IMG/VR virus record: IMGVR_UViG_3300045738_000405
Coordinates: 1-44,486 of that record
Source: a virus
DNA: 44,486 bases
Reading direction: 5' to 3' (one strand)
The notes beneath the pieces were generated by a model, which saw only the letters and a program-made list of their open reading frames with translations, was not told the origin of the DNA and ran no database searches. The translations under genes were made by a program, and so were the position numbers. Shown here piece by piece: positions 2,816-43,855 of the stretch (its first letter is position 1; each line of letters opens with the position of its first letter).

Positions 2816-3319
2816 CTAGCAATTATAAAAATAGTACCCGTCATGCTCTGCGTAGTCATACGCTAGGTCACGGCCAAAAGCGACATAATTAAAGTAATTC
2901 TTGATACTGTCAGGCACTTCGCTAAGCATTCCAGTTGACTCTATGTGGTCATAGGCTAAATCCTCGTCACTCTCAAAATGACCAGCGTAGCGTTCACTTA
3001 TCTTGTCTAGTTCAATGCCTAACTCAACACCAGCTTTTAGAACGTCTATGTCGTTCACCTCGTCTAGTGCTTCCAAGAAGTCCCATAGCTCAGCGTCAAG
3101 TGTCCATTCGCCTACGTATTTGTCTGGTATATCCTCGTAGTCTGCTACTATGTATTCTTCACGTAACTCACCATCGTTCATACGCTCGGTTAAGTCGTCT
3201 AGCCACTCTGTGCGAGCCTCGTCGAACTCGTTGTACGTAGCATAATCACTAATCTCGAAAGTCTTAGCAATCAATTTGCCGTCGTTGTAATCGCTTAGTG
3301 AGTAGAAAGTAATGTTCAT
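2816..3319 (-). CDS. ardA: ArdA-family antirestriction protein
   Basis: The protein (167 aa from ATG 3319) is strongly acidic, with few Lys/Arg, and follows the ArdA pattern: an N-terminal domain ending EYIVADYEDIPDKY, a central acidic helical part, and the C-terminal signature SEVPDSIKNYFNYVAFGRDL. ArdA mimics B-form DNA and blocks type I restriction-modification enzymes. It is the first gene after the early host promoter, the position of T7 gene 0.3 (ocr), an unrelated DNA mimic with the same job. A GTG three codons upstream (3328) is possible, but GAGGT sits at the right distance for 3319. Confidence 0.88.
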   Translation of the reverse strand: MNITFYSLSDYNDGKLIAKTFEISDYATYNEFDEARTEWLDDLTERMNDGELREEYIVADYEDIPDKYVGEWTLDAELWDFLEALDEVNDIDVLKAGVELGIELDKISERYAGHFESDEDLAYDHIESTGMLSEVPDSIKNYFNYVAFGRDLAYDYAEHDGYYFYNC

Positions 3320-3399
3320 GTGTAACACCTCGTTTAGTTAGTTAGTAGTTAGTTAAAATCACACCGTAAAGCCCTTGTTTAAAGACTCTAGGGTGTGAC

Positions 3400-4541: not shown

Positions 4542-4597
4542 TGTGTCATGTTTCTAAGTGACTAGTTAATGAGTACAGGGGACTATAAGTAAGACAG

Positions 4598-4715: not shown

Positions 4716-4738
4716 GTTTTCCTAGGGTGTGGGTTATC
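4716..4738 (-). promoter_or_regulatory. Phage RNA polymerase promoter after terL
   Basis: Minus strand reads GATAACCCACACCCTAGGA, with +1 at about 4722. It is nearly identical over 30 bp to the site upstream of the polymerase gene (43553-43574). T7 and T3 have a promoter and replication origin, phi-OR, at this end of the genome. A small hairpin GGTTAT/ATAACC (4732-4746) overlaps its upstream edge. Confidence 0.7.
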
Positions 4739-4751
4739 AAATAACCAGCTG

Positions 4752-6551
4752 TCAACTAACGTCCATCCATAGTTCGTTACCGTCACCTTCAAAGCCTACA
4801 ACGTATTCCATCAAGAATTTCTCTAACTCTTCTTCTTGTCGTAGAGCTTCAAGAACCTTAGCGTCTGAATCCATTTGTGTCAGCCAATAGGCCACAGCCA
4901 TTGCAACAGCGTCGAGTCTATCGTCGTGTCGTAGTGAGCCACGGTCTAACGTCAAGCGGGACATTTGGTAGAACAGAGAGTACGTTAAGTCCTGCTCACA
5001 TTTCGCAAGGTCGTCTGTAATGACTCTAGGGTCAATCACAAGGCGGTTCTGCATTAGGACAGGCTCAAGGGTATCGATTATGCGACGCTCTTTCTGTACG
5101 TTCTGTCTCACTTCCTCAACGGTGCAAGGATAGATACGCGAGAGGTAAGGCTTCAAGAGCTGTGCGAACATGCCGTCACCAAAGTTACTCTCTATTAAGA
5201 TAGCGTTTACTTTGTGTGACTTGGCGGTCTTCGCTAGGGTTGTTAGCGTTTCAGCTGTGTAACCGTCACGGCTACCACTGACTTCTGGGATAAAGATATT
5301 ACCAGCGTACATATAAGCCACGCACCAAGTCGTCTCGTCGTTACCACGGCCTGACGGGTCAATGACCAGTACTTTGCCTGTGTACTCTTGACGCTCAGTC
5401 GACACCCAGTAAGGACGGTAATAACGGTCACCCGCTAAACCTACTGACTCAATGTCTAGCAGCGTTTCTTTGTTACGCATTACTGTGAACTCAACAGGTG
5501 CTTTCGTTGGCGATACGTCCATGACAACAAGGTCATGCAGTTTCAATGGGTACTTAGCACCGTCAGATAACGCAGTGTCTAGCATGAACTGTAACGCGAA
5601 GCCTGCCTTACCGTATGATAAGCGACGTGTCTCAATGTCGGCTCTGTCAAAACGCGAAGGCTCTGTCGATGTACCTATCAGTTTACGGTCGTATTCAAGA
5701 GGCTCAGTTACGAATGATGCCAAAGCGCCTTTGTAGTGGGTTATCTCTTTATCAGTCGGGAATAGAAGAGGCCATACACGGCACTCATAGCCACGCTCAC
5801 GCAATGTATTGTAAAGGGACATTTCCGTCTGAGGCGTTCCAAGATAGATGATACGTGGCTTCTCAGCCATTGTACGAGGGTCATAAGGCTTGAGGATTGC
5901 GTCGAACTCTTTCACCAGCTCTGCCAGCTTATCGCGTGCGTCCTGAGTGTACGAGTTGTTAGGCACCTCAATGTCATCCGCTATGATTACGTTTGCACGG
6001 CTACCTGTTATCTGTCCTGTGATGGAAGCAGACTTTAATGAGGGCGAGTGGTCGGTAATAGCTGGCCCAACGTCAAACGCAATGAGCGAGTCACGCTGTC
6101 CTGTCTGAGGCGTTAAGTGCTTCAAGAAGTCCACCTCAGCGATTAGACGCTTGGTAAACGAAGAGAAGGCATCGGCCCGTTCTTTAGTTGCGGATATAAC
6201 CATTACTTTGATTTGAGGGTCACGGAACAGTAACCATACAACGAAGGCTGACGTCACGAATGACTTACCGCATCCACGGAATGCCTCAATGATTGAACGA
6301 ACAGGGCCGTTCGCTAGGTAGTGTCCAATGTTGTATTGAAGGGGTGTAGGGTCGGGTAGTTGAAGGTGTTTCCATATCATGTACAGGAAGAAGCTAAAGT
6401 CGTCCTTTAGTCGGCTCATAAGGGCCGCATAGCGTGAGTCTTCATCTTCTCTATCAATTATGTCAGTCTGAATGATTGTCTCAGGGGGAAGCCCTAGAGG
6501 CGTCTCAAAGGACTCTTCAACGACGACACCTTCAAGGTAATCGTCTTGTAT
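4752..6551 (-). CDS. Large terminase subunit (T7 gp19 family)
   Basis: This is the ATPase-nuclease that packages DNA into the prohead. It aligns with T7 gp19 along its length: Walker A-like EAFRGCGKSFVTSAFVVWLL, Walker B IIADDIEVPN, KVLVIDPSGRG and ESNFGDGMF of the nuclease domain, and LRHDDRLDAVAMA near the C-terminus. The first ATG (6419) lacks a ribosome-binding site and would cut a conserved N-terminus. The frame stays open and protein-like for 44 codons upstream to the endolysin stop, where AAGGAGG precedes an ATA codon at 6551. I give that as the likely start (599 aa against 586 in T7); start at 6419 (555 aa) is the conventional alternative. Confidence 0.93.
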   Translation of the reverse strand: MQDDYLEGVVVEESFETPLGLPPETIIQTDIIDREDEDSRYAALMSRLKDDFSFFLYMIWKHLQLPDPTPLQYNIGHYLANGPVRSIIEAFRGCGKSFVTSAFVVWLLFRDPQIKVMVISATKERADAFSSFTKRLIAEVDFLKHLTPQTGQRDSLIAFDVGPAITDHSPSLKSASITGQITGSRANVIIADDIEVPNNSYTQDARDKLAELVKEFDAILKPYDPRTMAEKPRIIYLGTPQTEMSLYNTLRERGYECRVWPLLFPTDKEITHYKGALASFVTEPLEYDRKLIGTSTEPSRFDRADIETRRLSYGKAGFALQFMLDTALSDGAKYPLKLHDLVVMDVSPTKAPVEFTVMRNKETLLDIESVGLAGDRYYRPYWVSTERQEYTGKVLVIDPSGRGNDETTWCVAYMYAGNIFIPEVSGSRDGYTAETLTTLAKTAKSHKVNAILIESNFGDGMFAQLLKPYLSRIYPCTVEEVRQNVQKERRIIDTLEPVLMQNRLVIDPRVITDDLAKCEQDLTYSLFYQMSRLTLDRGSLRHDDRLDAVAMAVAYWLTQMDSDAKVLEALRQEEELEKFLMEYVVGFEGDGNELWMDVS

Positions 6552-7946: not shown

Positions 7947-8524
7947 CCTTTAGGCTTCACAGGCCAGTTGATGTCGTAAGGGAAGCTAGCTTGTTCAGGT
8001 ATTCGTCGAAGGACTTCACGGTATTCTGCCCAAAGTAGAACAAGAGCTTCGCTGAAAGGGGCGTCTGGTAACATTGCGAAGTCACACGAACGCAGTAAGT
8101 AGTCACGTTGTTCGCGTACTGCGTTCTTTTCCATTTCGTCTTTTTCTTCCTGCGTTGGCTCTGGTTCAGGCTCTGGTTCAGGCTCTGGTTCAGGCTCTGG
8201 TTCAGGCTCTGGTTCAGGCTCTGGTTCAGGCTTAATTAGAAACCCGTCCTCAGGTACCTCCACACCTATGTCATCTATGACAATCTCTGTGCCGTCTTCT
8301 AGCCAGAACACAGTGCCTCTCAGGTCTGGTAGGACTACCCATTCATTAGCGCGTCTACAAGCCACTTCGTTAGGGCCTAAAGTTGGTAACGGTTCATACG
8401 TAGCGTACGCTGGTAAAATCACACTGCCTGTTACTGGGTCGTTTGATGTTTGGTTTTCTGGAAGAGGCCCTGTGTACGGGCGTAGCGGGTGGGTTATGTC
8501 GAACGTGTATACGTCTTCTATCAT
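7943..8524 (-). CDS. Tail fibre assembly-like protein with Glu-Pro repeat linker
   Basis: The 193-aa protein has an N-terminal beta-rich part (1-95), a linker of alternating Glu-Pro (about 97-122), and a C-terminal domain ending RDYLLRSCDFAMLPDAPFSE, then WAEYREVLRRIP and FPYDINWPVKPKG. That last domain is the hallmark of phage tail-fibre assembly chaperones. It follows the fibre genes immediately, as expected for a protein that helps fold or attach the fibre. ATG 8524 has AGGAG upstream. The linker DNA is a perfect 12-bp tandem repeat and may vary in length. Confidence 0.8.
   Translation of the reverse strand: MIEDVYTFDITHPLRPYTGPLPENQTSNDPVTGSVILPAYATYEPLPTLGPNEVACRRANEWVVLPDLRGTVFWLEDGTEIVIDDIGVEVPEDGFLIKPEPEPEPEPEPEPEPEPEPEPEPEPTQEEKDEMEKNAVREQRDYLLRSCDFAMLPDAPFSEALVLLWAEYREVLRRIPEQASFPYDINWPVKPKG
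8157..8228. repeat. Perfect 12-bp tandem repeat (6 copies) inside the fibre-assembly gene
   Basis: GGCTCTGGTTCA is repeated six times without change and encodes Glu-Pro-Glu-Pro on the minus strand. Since 12 is a multiple of three, gain or loss of units keeps the frame and would change only linker length. Confidence 0.95.
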
Positions 8525-8532
8525 ATTTCTCC

Positions 8533-10074
8533 TTATAGTCTTGTTTTAGCATTCAGGGCGTAGTTATTTGGACGTGATTCGCTGCCACCTGACGTGTTGA
8601 TAGTGTGGGTATGGGAACCTGCTGTCGAGATTGGGTGGGTGTGGTTTCCTTGGTAATCGGTGTATACAAGGGTTTGCCAGCCTTTGCTGGATGCACCAGC
8701 TCGGCCCGTGTCACCGTTAGTCTCCCTGCCTAAACCACTCGCGTGTCGGTGGTTGCCTGAAGCCCCAGTAGAGTGACTGTGGTTGCCATCTGTACTAATA
8801 GAGTGGCTATGGCTCAAGTTGTCTGTAGCCTCGAAAGAAGCATGACCGCGAGCACCTCCAGCCGCCTTGATAAACTTATCGCTAATCAAAGGCAACGTGA
8901 AAGTTGTTGTGTCATTACCACTGCCCCAATAAGCACCGTACGTAACTAAGTCAGCGTCTTTCGTCGCCTGTGCGATATAGTTGCTTGAGCTTGAGGCAAT
9001 AGCGAATGCGATAGGATGGTCAGCGCGGTTCAATGTGCCGCCATTTAGATACACCTCGCCCGACTTCAAGACGCTTGTAGTGCTTAGGAAGACTTCGCCA
9101 ATGTCTGATACGTTGTTGCCTGTCTTCGGGTTGTACTGGCTGACTAGGTAGAACTTACCGCCTATGTACAGGAACTCAGCGACAGCCGATGCGTACAAAC
9201 GAACAGAGGCACTTACGTTAGCCACTGCTACAGGCGCTAAAGAGTCCACCTTGATAGTCAGAGTGCTTGTTGATGTGGCCTTCACTGTTATAAGTACTTT
9301 GTCGTAATCACTTAACGAAGTGACGGCAGCACGCCCATTTGGTGAAGTGAGGGTTATAGCGTTGTTAGAACCACCCACTGTCGCTGAGTTCAAGAAGCTA
9401 TACTCAGTTACGTTAGGGAAGCCTTCTATCTCGGAAGCTGTAGGCCAGCGTGTAGCTGCTGCTGGTTTACCTGTCACTTCTTCAAACGTAGGCCACCGAA
9501 CTGCTGTCTGCGGTTTATCAGTCAATCCAGCCCATGTAGTCGTGCCTGCGATACCTTGTGGGCCTTGTGGGCCTTGTGGGCCTACTGGGCCTGTAGCGCC
9601 TGTCGTGCCTTTGTCACCTTGTTGGCCTTGGACGCCTTGTGGGCCTGTAGCACCTTGTTGGCCTCTTACGTCGCTCCATTCTCCCCATGTTCCATCTGTT
9701 TGCTGAAAGCGTAGGGAATAGATAGACGCTGTCGTACCGTCACCCCATTCATGGTCTGGCGCGTTGCCTGTCTCACCTTGAATGCCTTGTGGGCCTGTAG
9801 GGCCTGTAGCACCTGTCTCACCTTGAATACCTTGGTCACCTTTGACACCGTTGGTACCATTGATGCCGTCGATACCGTCTTCGCCTCGTTTAGCGCCAAG
9901 CACCCAATAATCAATATTGTTCAAGTTAGGCACTGTACCTACAGGGACTTCTTGTTTTGCTATCCATGTACTGCCTAAGTGGCTTACGGTGTCTAATGGG
10001 CCGTAATCTGCTACTAACGCGCTCCATTCACCACGAAGTGCTAAACGTACTCGTCCTATTTTTATTTCTGCCAA
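8533..10074 (-). CDS. Collagen-like tail fibre with His-rich collar-type tip, 513 aa
   Basis: Residues 1-65 form an N-terminal unit; about 70-175 are Gly-X-Y collagen-like triplets (GPTGPQGIQGETG and similar); the rest resembles phage tail collar/receptor tips. The C-terminal part has a series of HxH motifs (HSHS, HSHS, HRH, HTH, HTH) and ends RPNNYALNAKTRL, like the metal-binding tips of T4-type fibres. It probably binds the host receptor. It starts with TTG at 10074 (GGAG 6 nt upstream). It lies directly after the T7-type fibre gene and may attach to it through the shared collagen style. Confidence 0.82.
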   Translation of the reverse strand: MAEIKIGRVRLALRGEWSALVADYGPLDTVSHLGSTWIAKQEVPVGTVPNLNNIDYWVLGAKRGEDGIDGINGTNGVKGDQGIQGETGATGPTGPQGIQGETGNAPDHEWGDGTTASIYSLRFQQTDGTWGEWSDVRGQQGATGPQGVQGQQGDKGTTGATGPVGPQGPQGPQGIAGTTTWAGLTDKPQTAVRWPTFEEVTGKPAAATRWPTASEIEGFPNVTEYSFLNSATVGGSNNAITLTSPNGRAAVTSLSDYDKVLITVKATSTSTLTIKVDSLAPVAVANVSASVRLYASAVAEFLYIGGKFYLVSQYNPKTGNNVSDIGEVFLSTTSVLKSGEVYLNGGTLNRADHPIAFAIASSSSNYIAQATKDADLVTYGAYWGSGNDTTTFTLPLISDKFIKAAGGARGHASFEATDNLSHSHSISTDGNHSHSTGASGNHRHASGLGRETNGDTGRAGASSKGWQTLVYTDYQGNHTHPISTAGSHTHTINTSGGSESRPNNYALNAKTRL

Positions 10075-10083
10075 TTTATCTCC

Positions 10084-11106
10084 TTAGTTATTTACTGTTG
10101 ATACATATAGGTCACCGTTTGAATCTATGCGAAAAGCGTTATCTATCGAACTGCCGAGGTATTCCATTGTTAAAATACCGTCTTCATCTACGTAGATACG
10201 TCCAAACGCTAGGCCAAGTGGTGTTGAACCCATGTTGCCTTTATCACCTTTTGAGCCAATTGGCCCGACAGGCCCTTGGTCGCCTTGCTCACCTTTATCA
10301 CCTTTATCACCTTTAAGACCTTGATAGCCTTGAAGACCACGTGGGCCAGTAGCACCAGTAGCACCAGTAGCACCCGTAGGGCCTTGTTTACCTGTCGCGC
10401 CTCTGTCACCTTGTGCGCCTTGGACGCCTTGAGGGCCTTGAGGGCCTTGGATGCCTTGGATGCCTTGAGTACCTTGTGGGCCTGCTGGGCCTGTAGCACC
10501 TGTAGGGCCTGTAGCACCTGTTGGGCCTTCTGAAAGGTAAATTGTCAGACGACCAGTGACAGGGTCATACACAGCGTCGCCATCTTCACCATATGGAATA
10601 CGAATAAGAGTGGTAGTGATGTTATGTACTTGCTCCATCAAAGCACGCGCTTGAGCCAGCGTTGAGACAGACGCAGTGTTTACCCAGCCTTTAGTAACGA
10701 CGTCAGAGTCGTCTATAGGGTCTGCTGCGTTTTGGACGCGTGCGCCACCTAAGTTGACTGTGCCGTCTGCTTGTTGTGTAAAGCCTCGATTGGCTCTATC
10801 AACAGCTTCTTGCATTGCGTTGAATAACTGGATGTTAGCTAGGTCAAGGTCTGCTTCGTTTAGAAGGGCAGCTGACTTGAAGTCTACAGCTCGGTTATCA
10901 AGCTGGGTGACACGTGAGATAAGAACTTGGCTGCTTAAATAAGGTGGTTCTGCAAAAGTAACGCTTCCTGCGTTCACTTCGGCATCTTTCTGTTCTACAC
11001 CGTCGACGTAGGCGTACACCTCTTTGGTGTCTGTGTAGGTGAAAGGGATAGAGTACGTCCGTGTTACTCCATCGCCTGTCCTGCTGATAATTGAATATTC
11101 AGCCAA
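10084..11106 (-). CDS. Tail fibre, T7 gp17-type N-terminus with collagen-like shaft
   Basis: Residues 1-140 match the T7 gp17 N-terminal domain that fixes the fibre to the tail: RTYSIPFTYTDTKEVYAYVD, VLISRVTQLDNRAVDF and DLDLANIQLFNAMQEAVDRA. About 190-300 are Gly-X-Y triplets, and a short C-terminal domain of about 40 residues follows. At 340 aa it is far shorter than T7 gp17 (553), so it probably serves as an adaptor for the second fibre. It starts with TTG at 11106, GGAG 8 nt upstream. Confidence 0.88.
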   Translation of the reverse strand: MAEYSIISRTGDGVTRTYSIPFTYTDTKEVYAYVDGVEQKDAEVNAGSVTFAEPPYLSSQVLISRVTQLDNRAVDFKSAALLNEADLDLANIQLFNAMQEAVDRANRGFTQQADGTVNLGGARVQNAADPIDDSDVVTKGWVNTASVSTLAQARALMEQVHNITTTLIRIPYGEDGDAVYDPVTGRLTIYLSEGPTGATGPTGATGPAGPQGTQGIQGIQGPQGPQGVQGAQGDRGATGKQGPTGATGATGATGPRGLQGYQGLKGDKGDKGEQGDQGPVGPIGSKGDKGNMGSTPLGLAFGRIYVDEDGILTMEYLGSSIDNAFRIDSNGDLYVSTVNN

Positions 11107-11109
11107 TAA

Positions 11110-14100
11110 TTAGTCTCCTTCTGCAAGTCTTGCAGCGTTGTTTATGATTAGGTCGCCCATTAAGGTGTTCTGGAATGGGATAGCGAAACGGCCTGACTTG
11201 TAAGCGTCTGATAACTCAGTGTCTGACACGTCGTGTAAGCCTTTGTAGACTCGGTCGATTGCTGCTGACGTTGGGTTTGACGCTATACCTGTGGTCGCTA
11301 GGCCAGTGGAACGTGAGACGGGAAGTGCTATCTCTGGAATCATAGTGCCGACAATGCCGTTGTACAGCGTCGCAGCTGCGCCTAGGTTCGGTGCGTAAGA
11401 CACCATGTTTGCTGCTAGGCGCTCAGGGCTTAGGCGTTCTTCTAAGTACTCTTGTGTTTTATCATCGGACATACCAACGGTAGACACTGAGGTACGCGCT
11501 GTGTACGCGCCAGCTGCTAGAAGCAGACCGTAAGTAGTGCTTAATGCCACACGTGCGCCTTGGCCGTTCTTGATAGACCGAATGTCGGCACGAGCATGTT
11601 TTACCCATGAGTCAACAGCGAACGTACGGAACTGGAAGAACACTCGGCCCCATGTTGACGATAAGAGCGCCACACGTTCACCAGCTATGGACTTCTGCAC
11701 TTGACGGAAGTTATTGACTGTCATTGCGTCCATGAACTCGTCGGCTGTCTTTCTGTCCCATTTGTCGATGTTAAGTTGCGTTACGTTGCCCCAACGGTCT
11801 GTCTTCACGCCATTGTCTTGCATAGCAATCTTGATACGAGCACGAAGCTCAGGGTGTAAGCCTATCTCTTCGAAAGCGATACGAGCTGACTGCCCATTTA
11901 TTAGATGACTATGTAAAGCGTTAACTGATGACTGGAAGGAAACAAAACGAAGCATCTTGTCGACAGGTGCTAAGAAAGAGACTTTAGCCATGGCGCGTGA
12001 GCCTCTGTGTGCCAGAACCTCGGCTTTATTTAGTAGACCTGAGCTTTCACCTAGACCTACTTCATCGTGTAACAGGAAGCGTCTTACTAAAGCTTCGTCA
12101 CCGATACCAGCGCCAAACTGATTGACCTCCTTGATAAGCGAGGTGTCTTTAGTCACGTTGCGTACTGCGTCAGTGATTATCTTTGGAAGCATTGGGAATA
12201 TCTTTAAGACGTTCCGTGCTCGGTTTTCTGCTAGGGTGCGGCCTAATTCTGAGAACGCTGAAAAAGCGGCTTTACCCATTGCCGTCATAAAGTTGTATTG
12301 ACCTAGAATCCCTAGTACACGGTCTTTCGTGTCCTTCACGTCATAGCGGTTGTAACCTGAGATTTCACGTCGTAATTCTTCTAGCTTCTTAACGGCTGCT
12401 TCGGATTTCTCCCAGTTGTCCGTATTCTCCAATTCCACACGCTTAGCGTCGGCTTTCAGGGCCTCCCAGTCGGAAGGTGACTTGATGCCTGCACGCTCGG
12501 CCATTGCTACGTGTCCTGTCATATCTGAAATATAACGACCTTGGATAGCGAAGGCGTCACGTTCCATTAAGTCAGCTACACGCACTGTGCGACTTCCTTT
12601 GGTGATGGATATTGCAGGGTTAAGGCGAATACGAGTCTTAGCTTGAGATAGGACGTCTTTAGTGTCAGGTGTCTTGTATTGAACGACTGTGCGTAACAAG
12701 CGACGCTGTGCGTTTTCATCTAAGCCTTGATACTCAGGCATATCTTTGAAGAACTTCAAGATAGAGTCTTCTGATTCCATGAGTTCATCGATAGAGCGGA
12801 AGTCAGCACTCTTAGCGTCAAGCATACGTCGCGTGAAGCCAGCTGCTAGGAACTCACGTGCTCGCTTCAAGGACTGTAGTTCTGCCAGTTGCTCGGTCAA
12901 GTCGGCATGGTCACCGTCAGGCTTTAATAAGCGTTTATCAGTAAGTTCACGTTCTAGGTTAGACACTCGTGTGCGTATTGGTAACTCACCGTCAAAGGCG
13001 TCCAAGCTGCGATACACTAAGTCTGTGATTTCGTCTTCTTCGAATGCGTCAGCGCCACGACGTAGGCTAAACCAATCTTTCTGTGACCATTGCTGGCGCA
13101 TGTAGTTAGGGTTTTCTTCGAGTGAGGCAAAGCCGTGTAATTGTGAGCGTTGCGCGTCACCAAGAATTGAGCTGTTTATGTCCCGAATAGTGCCAGCCAC
13201 TTTAGCCACTTCTGGCCCATGGTCGACGTTCATTACGACAGACTCCCAGACCTTTTCGCTCAGCTCACGCATGACTGCCTGCTCAGTGAAAGGCGTCTTA
13301 GTGCCTGCGTATTCCTTCACCTTCACGCTACGTAGTTCTTCCATGGCACCTGATAGCTTACTCTGGTAACCGTCACGATAACGGGCAGCACGTACAGCGG
13401 CACTATGTGAACCACCGCCTATGCCGTCATGTAAGGCGTCTTGTGCAAAGCGCATCATTACTTGGTTCTCAGAGTTCATAAAGCGCCCGTAATCGTCGAC
13501 ACGTAGAGGGCCTGCGTCACTCTTCAATTTCGCAGCGCCTAAGCTTTGTGAGGCTACATGAACCTTACGCTTGGCTTCGGCTTCACCAAGTAAGCGAGCG
13601 GCTTTGTTAGCCTTCTGTGAGGCAAGAGCGCCTAGCCCACCAGTGACGGCAAGAGCCGCCATAGTGTCGACCATAGCGTCTGTCGTTGAGTAGTCATTCT
13701 GCGTTTGCATCTTAATAGAAGCGCCTACAGAACCAGCTAGACCAGCCTCAGCGACAGCCTTTGCGATAGTCCCTAAACGGCTTATCTTCTGACCAGCCAA
13801 CACAACGCCTGTCACTTTGTCACCGACAGCTACACTTCCAGCGGTCAGCGCGATAAATGCAGGGTCTAAGATAGCAGCGCCTAGAGCGACGCCAGCGCCT
13901 TTAAGACCTTGTTCGTCAAGAACCTTGCGTGACTCATTGATGTTCTTGAACTCGGTGATATGGTCTTCCCATTCCTCGATAGTTGCTTGCTCAGACACTA
14001 GGCCGCTGAATGCGTGTAGCTGGTCTTCATCAAATGAGTCGTCCAGTGAATCAAAGTCTTCAAGCGTCACACGTGGTAACTCTTGGTTGTACTCTTTGAA

Positions 14101-29506: not shown

Positions 29507-30172
29507 CTATTCTGTCAGGTACTTCCACGAGTAGGGGAAGAGAGGTTGGATAAGAGCACCGACTTCTTCTGCTAAGTGTTGGATTTCAACTTGTGCATGA
29601 GAGTCAGTACGTTGTTTGTAGAAGCGAGCGAATGCGGCAAGACTGCCAGTCCAGATCCAATTAACTTCGCAACCTTGAGGCAGGAAGAAACGGGCTTGCT
29701 CAGGACAGATACCAGCTTTAAGGGCGTCCATATAACGGCCAATAGCTAAGGCACCAATGTAGCGATAACGAGACATCCAAAGGTCAGAGTCTTGGTGTTT
29801 GCCTGCGGAACCTTGCTTGATGCTGCCTTCTGGCTTCTCACGGAAGAACTCAGGAATAAACAGCTCAGGTTCGCTTGAGATATAGCGTCGGCTTTCTTCA
29901 TTTTCGACGAAGCCTTGCTTGTGTTTGAAACACTGTGTGCGGATTGGGACAGGTGCTGTCATACGCAGCTTAATCGCTGTGTGGGCAAACGGTGTCCAGT
30001 GCTTGTGACGTGCTAGGTAGCGAATTAAAGCTTCGTGAGAGCGAATGTTCAAAGGCTCTGCTTCAATGTCAGAGATAAACTTTTGGACAAGTTCGTCGTC
30101 TGCGAAGGACACTTTAGCTGCCTGTACGACAGCCATATCGCTTCCCATGTGGTCTATGTATTTAGCTTGCAT
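29507..30172 (-). CDS. thyX: Flavin-dependent thymidylate synthase
   Basis: The 221-aa protein contains the phage variant of the ThyX motif, RTQCFKHKQGFVENEESRRY (residues 78-97), with upstream KHWTPFAHTAIKLRM and C-terminal FYKQRTDSHAQVEIQ, all typical of ThyX. It methylates dUMP to dTMP with FAD. It is set between nrdA and glutaredoxin as part of the dNTP-supply block. Confidence 0.93.
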   Translation of the reverse strand: MQAKYIDHMGSDMAVVQAAKVSFADDELVQKFISDIEAEPLNIRSHEALIRYLARHKHWTPFAHTAIKLRMTAPVPIRTQCFKHKQGFVENEESRRYISSEPELFIPEFFREKPEGSIKQGSAGKHQDSDLWMSRYRYIGALAIGRYMDALKAGICPEQARFFLPQGCEVNWIWTGSLAAFARFYKQRTDSHAQVEIQHLAEEVGALIQPLFPYSWKYLTE

Positions 30173-30870: not shown

Positions 30871-31203
30871 CTAGCGGTCGTCACCGCTGCCAATGATGAC
30901 GTCGCGTTTAGCGCGGTCTGACAGCTTCGCAATGTTGGAATGGGCGATTTCGCTAAGAGAGAAGCCATTGTCGGCTGCAAGTTGAGAAAGGTTCCATAGG
31001 ACGTCGCCTAGCTCTTTCTTAACTTTCTCTTTGTCTACTTCGCCTTGCTTGCGGATTGCCTTAGCGAATAGGCCAAGGACTTCACCAGTTTCCTCACCTA
31101 GTCCGAAGACTGGGTAGAAGGAACCGTCAGGATAAACAGCAAACTCAGCGGCTTGCTCTTGGTATGTGTCGAGTGAGTACGCTGGGTCGATTGTCTTAGT
31201 CAT
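30871..31203 (-). CDS. mazG: MazG-like nucleotide pyrophosphohydrolase
   Basis: The 110-aa protein has the MazG metal-binding pattern FGLGEETGEVLGLFAKAIRK, then KKELGDVLWNLSQLAADNGF. It would hydrolyse (d)NTPs or ppGpp-type alarmones; phage copies are thought to affect host stress signalling or clean the nucleotide pool. The start overlaps the coiled-coil gene by 8 bp. Confidence 0.88.
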   Translation of the reverse strand: MTKTIDPAYSLDTYQEQAAEFAVYPDGSFYPVFGLGEETGEVLGLFAKAIRKQGEVDKEKVKKELGDVLWNLSQLAADNGFSLSEIAHSNIAKLSDRAKRDVIIGSGDDR

Positions 31204-38353: not shown

Positions 38354-38775
38354 TGTTTCTTTGGTTTCTCCTTTTTCTTTTTGAGTGAGGTTTCTTGCGT
38401 GTACGGAAGGATTTTGAATGCGATAGACTCGCGGCCTTTCGGCACGATGAACTTAGTTAGGACTATTCGATAAACGTAGCGGTCGTCGAAGCCGTAGCGT
38501 TTACATAGGCAGTCCAAGAATGGTTTAACAGCGTTATCAAGGTCAGCGCCTCGTGTGCTGTAGTAGACGACCATACGTAATTCAAGTAGGCCGTCTGGTA
38601 TCTCGATGTCAGGAAGTACCCGTAATAGGTGGCTTTCATACTTCTGGTACTCTTTTGACTTCACTTTGACGCCTAAGAAAGCTTTGTTGGCACTCAGAGG
38701 TTTAAGCCCTGAGTGCGTCCAATTAGAAGTCGAGATTATCGAAGCCGTCGTCTGCACCACCTTGACGAGACTCAT
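38350..38775 (-). CDS. RusA-like Holliday junction endonuclease, in the gp3 position
   Basis: LKPLSANKAFLGVKVKSKEY, GLLELRMVVYYSTRGADLDN and AVKPFLDCLCKRYGFDDRYV carry the RusA fold pattern, with acidic residues of the DxDN..K..lD motif. RusA resolves branched DNA; in T7 the unrelated gp3 does this before packaging. The C-terminus is Lys-rich. The start is unclear: ATG 38775 has GGAAGG very close, ATG 38808 has none. The gene overlaps the SSB 3' end. Confidence 0.85.
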   Translation of the reverse strand: MSLVKVVQTTASIISTSNWTHSGLKPLSANKAFLGVKVKSKEYQKYESHLLRVLPDIEIPDGLLELRMVVYYSTRGADLDNAVKPFLDCLCKRYGFDDRYVYRIVLTKFIVPKGRESIAFKILPYTQETSLKKKKEKPKKQ

Positions 38776-39427
38776 TGCCTTCCGTGCTGTTTGGCACGTC
38801 GTTGTCATCTACTGGGTACTGGTCGTAAGCAAAGCCTTCTTCTTCTTCAAAGCCCATATCATCGGCTGACACATTACCGCCACCTTGACGCGCTTCGATT
38901 ACTTGAACTGCTTTGATGCTTAGCTTCACGCCAACACGTAGGCTTTTCTTCTGAGCACGACCACGGCCTTCAACTACAGGCATGGCCCATGGGCGCATTT
39001 CTGAGCTGACACGGACAATGGAACCGTTGCCGATTTTAGGCAAAGATGACGCAGGGATAGCTTTACGGGCAGCGTCAAAGAATGCGATTTTGTTAATCCA
39101 TGTTTCGCCTGTCTTCTTGTTCTTACCATCTTTGTTCAACTTACAGCGGAAGCAGATAACGCCTTCACCGTCTTCAAAGTAAGGTGGTTCGTCTGCGTAA
39201 ACTTCCACGACGTCTGCCTCTGCGTTTTCCTTCCAGTAAGCAAGGTTAGCTTCAATAGCATCGTCAATACGCTTGATTAGTTCAGCGGCATCGCCAGCGT
39301 CTGTAATGACATCGACTTTGTATGTAGCGTCACCAAACTTGGTGTCAGCTTCGTTTAGCCATGGGTAATTCGCAGTGCCTTTCGGGGTTGTTACGATTTG
39401 GTTCTTAGAGCCTTTCTGTTTAGCCAT
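38723..39427 (-). CDS. Single-stranded DNA-binding protein (T7 gp2.5)
   Basis: The 234-aa protein has an OB-fold core (TANYPWLNEADTKFGDATYK; VRVSSEMRPWAMP; GVKLSIKAVQVIEA) and a strongly acidic tail ending DDGFDNLDF with a terminal Phe, as in gp2.5, where the tail contacts polymerase and helicase. It is the first replication gene downstream of the early terminator. Confidence 0.9.
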   Translation of the reverse strand: MAKQKGSKNQIVTTPKGTANYPWLNEADTKFGDATYKVDVITDAGDAAELIKRIDDAIEANLAYWKENAEADVVEVYADEPPYFEDGEGVICFRCKLNKDGKNKKTGETWINKIAFFDAARKAIPASSLPKIGNGSIVRVSSEMRPWAMPVVEGRGRAQKKSLRVGVKLSIKAVQVIEARQGGGNVSADDMGFEEEEGFAYDQYPVDDNDVPNSTEGNESRQGGADDGFDNLDF

Positions 39428-39668: not shown

Positions 39669-39691
39669 TTGTCCTTTGGTGTGGTTTAAAT
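39669..39691 (-). promoter_or_regulatory. Phage RNA polymerase promoter after the ParB-like gene
   Basis: Minus strand reads TTTAAACCACACCAAAGGAC, +1 near 39674, overlapping the stop of the ParB-like gene. There is no gene start here, so a ribosome-binding site does not explain the motif. Confidence 0.62.
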
Positions 39692-40732
39692 GCGTGTGTT
39701 GTTGATGAACTCAGCGGCTTCTAAGATTGCGTTGATGACGTCTTCTGATTGGTCTGTCTCAGCGTCTAGGAATGACGCTATGTCTTCTTTCGCGTGTTTC
39801 CATGCAAAGGCAAACTCTTGAAGTGTGCGTACTGATGAAGTCCCTGTGTGTGTGTTATGTCCAACTTTGGGTTGCTGTTCAAGTTTGGACTCGATAGGAG
39901 TAACAGACGCAGCTATGTCTTTTGTAAGTCCTTTCTCAAGGTCGCTTAATGCTTTGCTTTTGGCGTCGGCTGGGTTGACGATAGTTACTTCTTCTAACTC
40001 GTCTTCGTCAAAAGGACATCCTTCTTCATCGTATAAGTTGCCTTCTTCGATAGGAGTAGAATCAACGACTGACGCTGGGTGCGCGGATTGTTTACGTAAA
40101 CTATCCGCACACTCTTCATCCATGCTGAATAAGCGTGTCAATGCGTCTCGATGAATCCCTAGCTTTTCCGTAATAGAGCGTACTGACATTTCAGTGCGTA
40201 GCTGTTTGGCAAGTCGTAGGGCTTTTAGGTCGACTTCTCTGCGAGCTTCTTCTGTCCATTTAGCAAACGTCTTGTTTGACGTTATGATGCCTAAGTCTTT
40301 AAGTGAAGATTTGATTTTAGCCGAGTTGTAGCCTGCCATTTCGACAGCCATTGGTAGTAACTTTAGAATGGCTCGTTTCTGGTCACTGCCATTAGGCTTA
40401 GAGCCTGATTTCAAGTGCTCGAAGTTTGCAGCCATGGCGTAAACCATTGCGTCCTGCTCAGTACCTTCAATTAGCAATGCTGGTAATTCTTCACGTTCAG
40501 CACGTTCAAACGCAAAGTAGCGGTGGAAGCCGTCTACAAGTATCTTGCGTCCACGAACCTCAATAATGTTGATAGGAGGGAGGGCGTCTAAGGCGTCGAC
40601 ATAGTTATCAATGACGTCGTGGTTCATTTGCTCGCGCATTTGGTAAGTGTGGTCGATTACGACTTCACCTAGGCGTAAAGAGATAGTGTTTGCTGTAGCG
40701 AAAGCATTGTTTAATTCTGCAAAAGTTTTCAT
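39686..40732 (-). CDS. ParB-like (ParB/Srx fold) DNA-binding protein
   Basis: Residues about 15-105 show the ParB N-terminal pattern: DHTYQMREQMNHDVIDNYVD, PPINIIEVRGRKILVDGFHR and YFAFERAEREELPALLIEG. A helix-turn-helix follows (MSVRSITEKLGIHRDALTRL, about 180-200). ATG 40732 has GGAG upstream; a frame start at 40777 has none. At about residues 208-218 it contains CADSLRKQSAH, encoded by an inserted palindrome also found in the RNA polymerase. It may regulate transcription or segregate DNA; no parA partner is present. Confidence 0.8.
   Translation of the reverse strand: MKTFAELNNAFATANTISLRLGEVVIDHTYQMREQMNHDVIDNYVDALDALPPINIIEVRGRKILVDGFHRYFAFERAEREELPALLIEGTEQDAMVYAMAANFEHLKSGSKPNGSDQKRAILKLLPMAVEMAGYNSAKIKSSLKDLGIITSNKTFAKWTEEARREVDLKALRLAKQLRTEMSVRSITEKLGIHRDALTRLFSMDEECADSLRKQSAHPASVVDSTPIEEGNLYDEEGCPFDEDELEEVTIVNPADAKSKALSDLEKGLTKDIAASVTPIESKLEQQPKVGHNTHTGTSSVRTLQEFAFAWKHAKEDIASFLDAETDQSEDVINAILEAAEFINNTRI
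40079..40112. repeat. 34-bp palindrome inside the ParB-like gene, copy 1
   Basis: The arms GTGCGCGGAT and ATCCGCACAC (one mismatch) surround a core GTTTACGTAAAC that is itself a perfect palindrome. 33 of 34 bases match 41667-41700. It is read in frame as CADSLRKQSAH. Confidence 0.95.
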
Positions 40733-40804
40733 GTGTCGACTCCACGTACGATACTGATAAGGTATAAGGATGCCCACAGCCGTGTGGCCGTGAGCTAATT
40801 GTTC

Positions 40805-40824
40805 ACTATTGGTGTGTGTTAATT
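40805..40824 (-). promoter_or_regulatory. Weak phage promoter candidate after the RNA polymerase gene
   Basis: Minus strand reads TTAACACACACCAATAGTGA, like the family but with one extra base before TAG. T7 has promoters phi1.1A/B at this place. Confidence 0.35.
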
Positions 40825-40826
40825 AA

Positions 40827-43436
40827 TTAAGCGAAGCAGTAAGGTGACTCTAAGACTGACTTAGGGTCTAACGTGCCTCGGCTTGGGAGTGGCGGGAAGC
40901 TGTCACGCTTCTCTGGTGGTACTTGTTTCTTGAATTGCTCTAATAGCTCAGCGAAGTAATCGCCTTCATACAACTCAATGAATGACTCACGAATGACACT
41001 GTAGAACTCTTGTGTCTTCCCTGCGTGCGTTCCGAATGAGTCGTGGATAAGGGCGAAGTGTCTAATGCCTTTCTTATGACCATTCCATACTGTCAACATT
41101 AAGTGTGACGCATCTAATGAATGCACGATGTTAGGTGATATAGCATTGGAACTCTTACGCTTGTCTATCTCAGGTGTATCACGACGTAACGAGAGAACCT
41201 TACGTGCGCCTGCTAGTTGCGTTTCGACACGCTCGTCTTTAGTCATTCTGTAGTTTTGCACTACAGGGAAACCAAGAGGCGTTGTCCATGTAACAGGGCG
41301 TCCCTCACTAGCTACAATACGAGCACAAGCTTGCATCCAGTCCATTGCCTCAGCTGCTTTCACTACAGTGCTTTGTACACTTGTGTAGTTAAGCTTTGCT
41401 AAGTAGTTGGACAGTTCCATCATAGGGTAGAACGTGTCCAGTGAGCCGCGCTCGGTTCTCTTTAGGAGTGGGCTTTCAGCTTTATCCTTATCCTTGACGA
41501 AGGGCCTTAGGATGTCTTCTAGGATTTGGTCAGAGAAGCCGCGCTGCTTAGAGCCATAAGGAAACGTCATGCAATTACGCTTGGTAACTGAGCGATTGAT
41601 ACCGAAGTCTAGCCACCATTTAGCTAAAAGATGCTCAGGTGTCTTGGGCTTCTCGTCTGACTCTTGGTGCGCGGATTGTTTACGTAAACTATCCGCGCAC
41701 TTTGCATTCGCTATGGCCTCTTCAAGCTGTATTACTGTTTTCTCAGCTACTGAGCGGTAAATGTCGGCTGGCACTTCACTAGGTAGAAGGTTTACATAAG
41801 CACCACCCACTGCGTCACGGAAGGCTAACGACAAGTTTTGAATACCTGAGCATGAACCATCTAAAGCGATAGGAGTACGGCTGATGTGTTCTTCTGGGTT
41901 ATCACAGCGATAAGCAGCTACTAAGTCTATGGTGGCAGAGTACGCTTGAAACGGTTTGTCAGCGTCGCACCACTGGCGATAGTAGTAAGGGTTGTCAGCA
42001 ATCCCCATAAGCATTTCTTTGTTGTCTTCACACCACTTCACACGGTCGTCATAAGAAACCTTATCGACACCGAACAAGTTTGCTACGTGTACCTTTAGCC
42101 AGCGTAGACCGTCTTTGCCAAGCGGGAAGCCGTCAGCAAATTCAAGCAGTGCCTTCGTGTAGTCAGCGCCTTGTGGGTTGAGTGAAGGTAGAGGGTACAC
42201 TCGGCTTCTAAAGTCGACGTTATGTGGCATGTAGATAGCTTCATAGTCTTGGTAACGCTTGGCTGTGTCTAAGTTCTGCAAGTAAGCTAAGCGTTTACCT
42301 GTGATGCGTACGTTTTCTTCATGTACTGCACGTGCTGACAGTCGGTAAGCCTTGCGTGCCTCTTCGTTTGTGTCGATGTCCTTAGGTTTGTTAGGTACTG
42401 GCAGTAGCTCAGCGCGTGGTGTTCCTCCTAGCTCGCTGTTACGTTCCATAAGCTCGTTGAGTAGACGTAAGACGCGCTTATTCACTCGCCAGCGTGTTTG
42501 TTGTATCGCATTGACAGCCTCAAGAAGCTTAGGCATTTCGCTATATTTAAGCAGCTCCAAGTAATTGCGGTTACGCACCTTAACGAAAGGACGACGCTTG
42601 ATGTAGTCAGTCCAGTAACCACCGTTTAGCTCGCCTGCAATCCATGGCTTAGGAGGAATGACAGTAGGCTCTAGGATGGGCGCACAGTCGCGTAACGCTT
42701 CTTCAATGATGATGCTCGCGCCTTGCTTTGTGTCTTGGGTCGGACGCATAAAGATGGCTGTTTTGTTACCACCAGTAGGACGCTCATAGAACTCGACAAG
42801 AGAAACACATTCTTGAATAGCATCAATTACGACCATGCCTATGTGCATACAGACTTTTTCGTCCCATGCGTTCCACTCTTGGTCGTCTTGCTTAGCTAAG
42901 AATTTAATGACGCTTACCTTGCGTTTGTATTCCCCTTTCTCAGCTGCCATTTTAAGCATACCTTTATAGGCCACACGGTCTTTACGTCGCAGCTCGACAC
43001 AACGAACCTCGTCTTCAATCATGCGGCCTATGCGTATAGCAGTTGACGAAAGCATGGCACGTTCTGTCATTAGTCCCTCCATGATAGCCTTGAGTCCTAG
43101 CATGGCTGACACTCGGTAAGGTACTGACTCGATGTAAGGCTCAGCGATTCGTCTAGCGCCTGCTTTACCTTTGCCATTGATTACCCACTTCTCTAGGACA
43201 ATTGCGGCAGGCTCGATGTACATGCTTATGACTTTATCGCCATACGCTGTGTTGTCTTGTGAGTTGCTTTGCATTGCTTTGTTTAACTGCTTACGAAAGC
43301 GAACACGGCCAGCGTCACGCATACCCATTTCAAGGGACATTTGTTCTTTAATGAGTGAAGCAGAGACATCGTGAAGTGGTGCCAGTACGTCTAGCGTGTC
43401 GTCTTCTTGAAGTAGACTTAGTGTTGTACTTGTCAT
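40827..43436 (-). CDS. Single-subunit phage RNA polymerase (T7 gp1)
   Basis: The 869-aa protein has the T7 RNAP landmarks: ALDGSCSGIQNLS with the first catalytic Asp (about 524), NRSVTKRNCMTFPYGSKQRG with the catalytic Lys and Tyr (about 618-630), TPLGFPVVQNY before the specificity loop, LIHDSFGTHAG with the second Asp (about 797), and the required aromatic C-terminus YCFA. It is 14 residues shorter than T7 (883). A palindrome-encoded insert CADSLRKQSAH lies at about residues 579-589. ATG 43436 follows AAGGA. Confidence 0.97.
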   Translation of the reverse strand: MTSTTLSLLQEDDTLDVLAPLHDVSASLIKEQMSLEMGMRDAGRVRFRKQLNKAMQSNSQDNTAYGDKVISMYIEPAAIVLEKWVINGKGKAGARRIAEPYIESVPYRVSAMLGLKAIMEGLMTERAMLSSTAIRIGRMIEDEVRCVELRRKDRVAYKGMLKMAAEKGEYKRKVSVIKFLAKQDDQEWNAWDEKVCMHIGMVVIDAIQECVSLVEFYERPTGGNKTAIFMRPTQDTKQGASIIIEEALRDCAPILEPTVIPPKPWIAGELNGGYWTDYIKRRPFVKVRNRNYLELLKYSEMPKLLEAVNAIQQTRWRVNKRVLRLLNELMERNSELGGTPRAELLPVPNKPKDIDTNEEARKAYRLSARAVHEENVRITGKRLAYLQNLDTAKRYQDYEAIYMPHNVDFRSRVYPLPSLNPQGADYTKALLEFADGFPLGKDGLRWLKVHVANLFGVDKVSYDDRVKWCEDNKEMLMGIADNPYYYRQWCDADKPFQAYSATIDLVAAYRCDNPEEHISRTPIALDGSCSGIQNLSLAFRDAVGGAYVNLLPSEVPADIYRSVAEKTVIQLEEAIANAKCADSLRKQSAHQESDEKPKTPEHLLAKWWLDFGINRSVTKRNCMTFPYGSKQRGFSDQILEDILRPFVKDKDKAESPLLKRTERGSLDTFYPMMELSNYLAKLNYTSVQSTVVKAAEAMDWMQACARIVASEGRPVTWTTPLGFPVVQNYRMTKDERVETQLAGARKVLSLRRDTPEIDKRKSSNAISPNIVHSLDASHLMLTVWNGHKKGIRHFALIHDSFGTHAGKTQEFYSVIRESFIELYEGDYFAELLEQFKKQVPPEKRDSFPPLPSRGTLDPKSVLESPYCFA
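41667..41700. repeat. 34-bp palindrome inside the RNA polymerase gene, copy 2
   Basis: GTGCGCGGAT and ATCCGCGCAC are exact complements around GTTTACGTAAAC. The same peptide, CADSLRKQSAH, is produced as in copy 1. In the polymerase it lies in the variable stretch between DNA-contacting motifs, where T7 RNAP has a different loop. Confidence 0.95.
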
Positions 43437-43767: not shown

Positions 43768-43833
43768 TGTTGGTACCAGTAGGCGGACTCGAACCGCCAC
43801 ACCCGAAGGCAACGGATTTTGAATCCGTCGTGT
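43768..43833 (-). repeat. attR: attR: 66-bp direct repeat within the intact tRNA-Leu
   Basis: Exact copy of 211-276. The phage supplies this 3' portion of the tRNA gene and so keeps tRNA-Leu functional after integration; the exact crossover point within the 66 bp cannot be read. Confidence 0.95.
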
Positions 43834-43855
43834 CTACCAATTCCACCACACTGGC
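43771..43855 (-). tRNA. tRNA-Leu, anticodon CAA
   Basis: An 85-nt class II tRNA with encoded CCA. The anticodon loop is TTCAAAA (CAA, reads UUG), with D-arm GGTAGACACG, variable arm GCCTTCGGGTGT and T-arm GGTTCGAGTCC. The acceptor arms GCCAGTG/TACTGGT pair with G-U at both ends of the stem. The 5' 22 nt come from the host side and the rest from the repeat. The UUG codon it reads is used as a start codon by many genes of this phage, a coincidence I do not over-interpret. Confidence 0.95.

Follow-up and report, generated by a model that had tools for sequence, protein, structure and literature searches.

The DNA analysed here (44,486 nucleotides; hereafter the window) is IMG/VR record IMGVR_UViG_3300045738_000405 and contains an integrated T7-like prophage. 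Its RNA polymerase (RNAP) gene and the neighbouring gene for a ParB-like protein each carry, in frame, a copy of one 34-bp palindrome. In the sole close relative found, the same two positions are occupied by a shared sequence of that phage's own. We tentatively propose, with confidence just short of even, that the palindromes are cis-acting phage DNA sites, each a 34-bp dyad bound by a dimeric phage protein, most probably the ParB-like protein itself.

A matched palindrome in two adjacent phage genes

The two genes and the two dyads they contain are as follows.

40827..43436, minus strand: T7-type single-subunit RNA polymerase gene, 869 amino acids (phmmer to T7 RNAP, 3e-141; 37% to the RNAP of Bordetella phage BB8)
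41667..41700, minus strand: 34-bp dyad, copy 1, in the RNA polymerase gene; encodes CADSLRKQSAH, RNAP residues 580-590
39686..40741, minus strand: ParB-like protein gene, 351 amino acids (phrog_1033, ParB-like partition protein, 6e-9)
40079..40112, minus strand: 34-bp dyad, copy 2, with one synonymous change, in the ParB-like gene right after a segment resembling a helix-turn-helix (HTH); encodes CADSLRKQSAH

The sequence GTGCGCGGATTGTTTACGTAAACTATCCGCGCAC is exact in the RNAP gene and has one mismatch in the ParB-like gene (33/34 alike), and dinucleotide shuffles gave none. The sole difference, TGC/TGT, is synonymous (Cys), so both copies are read in one frame as CADSLRKQSAH; the other strand would yield a similar peptide, CADCLRKLSAH. 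The two copies, their common frame and the similar peptide of the other strand had been noted in a first-pass annotation from the sequence alone and were confirmed. That annotation placed two bases between core and arms; the gap is a single base, giving an architecture of 10 + 1 + 12 + 1 + 10 in which a T.T mispair borders the 12-bp core on either side. The RNAP copy pairs at 16/17 positions and the ParB copy at 15/17. The window contains no more than three 34-bp dyads in which 14 or more of the 17 positions pair: both palindromes and one terminator-like hairpin. The palindrome is also the best 28-nucleotide match between the two genes (28/28, against a background of 19/28). The flanks of the copies show essentially no relationship (left 10/30, right 14/30), which excludes gene duplication, as had been argued earlier.

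The RNAP copy aligns with T7 RNAP residues ~591-602 (phmmer alignment). Splitting T7 RNAP at residue 601 leaves the enzyme functional, and domains can be fused to it at that point (PMC4299498); extra residues at this position therefore need not hurt the enzyme. The first-pass annotation had held that an insertion in an essential polymerase must be harmless or used, and the position next to residue 601 bears out a harmless location. About 11 residues are missing at the dyad position from more distant T7-like RNAPs, and no dyads were found in the RNAP loops of Bordetella BB8, Limnohabitans YIMV22061 and Rhizobium Pasto. The ParB-like protein consists of a ParB_N-like domain, the HTH-like segment, the dyad-encoded linker and a PASVVDSTPIEE motif.

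A relative phage carries its own pair at the same positions

The relative, IMGVR 3300045789_000886 (G001; loci L003/L006-L008), is collinear with the window over the entire prophage, with about 67-77% nucleotide identity in longer blocks. Its RNAP is about 77% identical to that of the window (74% between the genes at the nucleotide level). The window palindrome has no copy in G001. At the same two positions G001 carries GTCCCATGCAACGGGCGCTGTATCGGAC (RNAP nucleotide 1743) and GTCCCAAACAACGGACGCTGTATCGGAC (ParB nucleotide 624), which agree at 25/28 positions, the best background match between those genes being 21/28. The dyads of the two phages are alike at 9/34 positions. Within its gene, the RNAP site of G001 ranks first among 34-bp dyads (12/17 pairs; codon-shuffle p = 0.0016). 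The earlier description of the palindromes as inserted thus holds in part: distant T7-like RNAPs lack the ~11 residues, but the closest relative is empty at neither place, having its own sequence at the RNAP dyad and a ParB site of equal length.

The 28-mer copies of G001 differ by non-synonymous changes only and the window copies by a synonymous change only; conservation therefore acts at the nucleotide level. Both G001 sites encode T[DG]AVSD. Judging from these two genomes, we conclude that each phage has two matching dyads and that their sequence differs from phage to phage. The ParB-like protein is among the most diverged proteins of the window–G001 pair (52%), its HTH/linker half being the worst; the sites of these two phages likewise differ, as matched pairs.

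Searches in viral and bacterial genomes

The first-pass annotation had suggested searching for the 34-mer in other genomes and had named its absence in advance as counting against a mobile palindrome. The exact 26-bp core was absent from all that was searched: it had no match in 2.9 million viral contigs or in 84,980 species genomes (one genome per species). The exact 22-bp core likewise had no match in the viral contigs, and a BLAST search with the 34-mer in plasmid and phage records returned nothing. Allowing up to 3 mismatches, seven near Marinomonas genomes gave no match, and a scan of 49 Marinomonas genomes with the outer-arm pattern gave one non-chance match, in a phage-derived locus of genome G034. 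A mismatch-tolerant scan of the class found nothing beyond chance, and that of the order found chance matches and the same locus only. In a stretch of 330 kb of the G034 chromosome, 10 dyads reached 14/17 pairs or more; many of these resembled terminators, and no coding dyads of the GTG..CAC type were present. On these empty or chance-level scans, a host-genome repeat was rejected. Other candidates were discarded as well: relaxing the scan of viral contigs to the arms alone gave 27 palindromes, all unrelated, a half-dyad scan gave one match by chance, and a ParB profile search in the order gave two distant ParB-like proteins that lacked both phage context and dyads. An exact scan of viral contigs for the conserved flank, an RNAP profile search in the host family, and a literature search on T7-like Marinomonas prophages or on the peptide found none.

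The matching locus, L122, and the window segment that it resembles most closely are the following.

8652-13739 of Marinomonas genome G034 contig 8: locus L122, with a resolvase, two truncated ParB-like fragments, an RNase H, a 444-amino-acid open reading frame without family and an integrase
40036..40078 of the window, minus strand: ParB linker flank straight after the dyad; its first 30 nucleotides are 28/30 identical to those right of the L122 dyad at 9720

Around the match, a stretch of 2-4 kb holds the truncated ParB-like fragments, phage-promoter-like motifs (10123, 10209) and copies of a phage sequence. The 34-bp dyads at 9356 (15/17), 9720 (14/17) and 10033 (14/17) outrank all others in 20 kb, and those at 9356 and 9720 occupy the homologous ParB linker position. 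The dyad at 10033 is 31/34 like that of the window, has unrelated flanks and precedes a phage-type promoter motif by ~75 bp. The dyad at 9720 is only 14/34 like that of the window, yet its right flank is nearly identical. It was found through this flank homology and its palindromy was noticed afterwards; we estimate the chance of 14/17 pairs at such a preset place at ~1e-6. It holds an in-frame stop, there in a truncated gene. No phage structural genes were seen in L122, whose integrase is 32% like that of the window over the aligned part, and we regard the locus as a candidate phage satellite or decayed prophage. A ~42-nucleotide sequence, CTTACTTATAGTCCCC..TACTCATTAACTAGTCACTTAGA, occurs at 4553-4595 of the window and twice in L122 (10864-10908, 11025-11065). 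In the window it adjoins a 555-amino-acid gene (4752-6419; putative terminase, by position) and is a candidate packaging or other cis signal common to the phage and this satellite-like locus.

The seven copies (two each from the window and G001, three from L122) were aligned without gaps. Pairs were changed on both sides at 13/17 positions while 83% of cells were paired. The covariation score was 0.63 versus 0.235 in shuffled alignments (0/500 reached 0.63; relatedness is ignored by the shuffles) and at most 0.16 in slid controls. Two of the L122 copies were noticed through their palindromy, which inflates the percentage paired; the copy at 9720 and those of G001 are less biased. We conclude from this alignment that palindromy is preserved across phages through changes on both sides.

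Predicted recognition sites for a dimeric phage protein

Matching at the nucleotide level in two genes, palindromy that outlasts sequence change, and turnover as a set together suggest recognition by a dimeric protein that binds DNA in trans. The obvious candidate is the ParB-like protein, whose own gene holds one of the sites, right after the HTH-like segment, and which has diverged strongly, most of all in its HTH/linker half. One predicted recognition site would thus lie within the ParB-like gene itself and the other 1.6 kb off in the neighbouring RNAP gene, both at places where additional residues are tolerated, which would let a site fit the coding sequence in frame. The specificity of the ParB-like protein and both sites would change together between phages. 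Binding might lead to partition-like clustering; alternatively, it might place a roadblock on the RNAP-ParB transcript, providing autoregulation and lysogeny control as at stoperators. A DNA-binding site had been mentioned in the first-pass annotation as an alternative, and it appears to fit the comparative data better than the mobile palindrome preferred there: each phage has a matched pair at homologous positions, the sequence differs between phages, and the host has no dispersed repeat.

The dyad core, TGTTTACGTAAAC, recalls the parS sequence, TGTTTCACGTGAAACA. A ParB site inside parB, parS-359, is found in B. subtilis (PMC4442127), and the likeness to the window lies in a palindromic site within a ParB gene, the role of the window dyad being predicted. 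Unlike parS, the dyad sequence is not conserved between relatives, and its carrier is an integrated prophage. In cluster A mycobacteriophages (L5 and relatives), stoperators are repressor-bound sites away from promoters, with a consensus that varies by phage group with repressor specificity (PMC6550527). The resemblance is the predicted turnover of sites between phages together with the specificity of the binder, and a location inside the RNAP and ParB-like genes is compatible with a roadblock. Stoperators are, however, short, asymmetric and numerous and are bound by an unrelated repressor (PMC6550527), whereas the window has two long symmetric sites in adjacent genes.

Several points weigh against this reading. 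The three different dyads within 0.7 kb of L122, beside truncated ParB-like genes, are unexplained by a single cognate protein. Pairing in the G001 dyads is incomplete (12/17 and 11/17), and parS is typically 16 bp long versus 34 bp for the dyad. Pfam matches the protein to ParB_N below the cut-off only, a weak assignment, and no parA was identified among the annotated window genes, for which annotation is incomplete. An AlphaFold model of the ParB-like protein from two sequences reached a predicted local distance difference test (pLDDT) score of 41, too poor for use. The whole data set for the dyad comparison comprises two phages and one decayed locus.

To our knowledge, how temperate T7-like phages silence their own RNA polymerase in lysogens is poorly understood. 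A matched, fast-changing dyad pair in the RNAP and ParB-like genes offers a concrete and testable candidate for a lysogeny switch or an immunity-type specificity, and it illustrates how protein-coding sequence may conceal a DNA site, nucleotide pairing being kept despite changes on both sides. A broader scenario, which we hold to be unlikely, is that Marinomonas T7-like phages carry a coding-embedded two-site recognition system swapped as a set, like an immunity group, and that a phage satellite in another Marinomonas gathered several different dyads, helper-type promoters and copies of the terminase-adjacent signal to answer several helper types.

Competing explanations

The main rival takes up the small mobile palindrome of the first-pass annotation, comparable in idea to Rickettsia palindromic elements (RPEs): a phage-borne element would copy itself into tolerant in-frame places, different lineages having repeatedly settled in the same two sites. 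Near-perfect palindromes in frame in two genes, the ~11 residues missing from more distant RNAPs, and the 31/34-like copy in a third, unrelated context at L122 10033 speak for such an element. However, the 49 Marinomonas genomes and the other collections searched hold no dispersed copies, the 330 kb of host chromosome lacks such coding dyads, and neither a mobilising enzyme nor a target duplication was identified. Because the relative has matched but different dyads at both positions, the explanation would also require that double insertions hit the same places twice, independently. RPEs, as summarised in PMC10969869 (citing Ogata 2000, 2002), are ~150 bp long, with tens of copies dispersed in a bacterial chromosome. 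By that summary they resemble the window dyads as palindromic DNA that is read in frame in protein genes of unrelated kinds and does the protein no harm, and CADSLRKQSAH is indeed translated in both proteins; they differ in that the dyads are 34 bp long, two in number, phage-confined, and conserved in position and not in sequence. Where mobility predicts empty orthologous sites in close relatives, G001 has its own matched pair at both. Repetitive extragenic palindromic (REP) elements fall in a suitable length range (20-40 bp palindromes) and are high-copy, extragenic and marked by GTAG/CGTC tags (PMC3733652), whereas the two window dyads are intragenic and carry neither tag. With the core absent elsewhere, no family in the genus and a different pair in the relative, the mobile palindrome is weakened, and we consider it somewhat unlikely.

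The remaining explanations are less probable still. Were the dyads recombination sites or module boundaries, the direct repeats or the ParB dyad would be crossover points at which HTH modules are swapped between phages or 1588 bp are deleted, fusing RNAP to ParB in frame. Orientation and frame are alike in both phages, a serine resolvase gene adjoins the L122 dyads, and at the edge of the dyad the identity between L122 9720 and the window changes sharply (left ~55%, dyad 41%, right 93%). But no RNAP::ParB fusion was found, the left flank of L122 9356 matching RNAP at chance level (7/30), and no resolvase was identified among the annotated window genes; since the dyad sequences differ, no single recombinase would serve all. 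As to a loxP-like 34-bp site, the phage integrase adjoins the tRNA att site instead. We therefore regard recombination as improbable. Much the same low probability attaches to an RNA hairpin in the RNAP-ParB transcript, such as an RNase III site or translational operator. The window and L122 copies do fold strongly (-14.6 to -32.1 kcal/mol including flanks; z -4.9 and -4.0 for the window), and the C to U change in the ParB copy retains a U.G pair. The explanation loses ground because the G001 copies fold no better than shuffles (z -0.7, -0.4); moreover, a purely structural element needs no matched sequence in two genes, and cleavage within an open reading frame would destroy the message. Selection on the peptide, as a protein-binding or processing motif shared by RNAP and ParB, would account for its identity in both window proteins and for T[DG]AVSD in both G001 proteins. 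We find it very improbable because the G001 28-mer differences alter the amino acid; palindromy is also maintained by paired nucleotide changes, and the L122 9720 copy holds a stop, though in a truncated gene.

Prophage setting and other features

The prophage and its surroundings are delimited by the following features.

211-276 and 43768-43833: attL/attR direct repeats, 66 bp, covering the 3' part of the tRNA-Leu(CAA) gene and marking the prophage ends
43771-43855: tRNA-Leu(CAA) gene, the prophage insertion place, adjoining queA
391-1449: tyrosine integrase gene, by the tRNA att site
38723-39427: T7-type SSB gene, giving the gene order RNAP, ParB-like, SSB

The right flank of the window contains the start of QueA, 91% identical to that of Marinomonas pontica, so the host is a Marinomonas, a marine bacterium. 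As judged from this sequence context, the virus is a temperate T7-like phage, present as a prophage in a Marinomonas tRNA-Leu gene. A repeated intergenic motif, GATAACCCACACC[CA]TAGGANAA, occurs at 4721, 22987, 25001, 31448 and 43557 (minus strand), as well as in G001 and L122, and likely represents promoters for the phage's own RNA polymerase. Accessory genes encode an ArdA-type antirestriction protein (2816-3328), ThyX (29507-30172) and MazG (30871-31203). Collagen-like Gly-X-Y repeats at 9535-10547 extend across two open reading frames (8533-10074, 10084-11106), possibly tail fibre genes, and a tandem repeat with the 12-nucleotide unit GGCTCTGGTTCA lies at 8157-8240.

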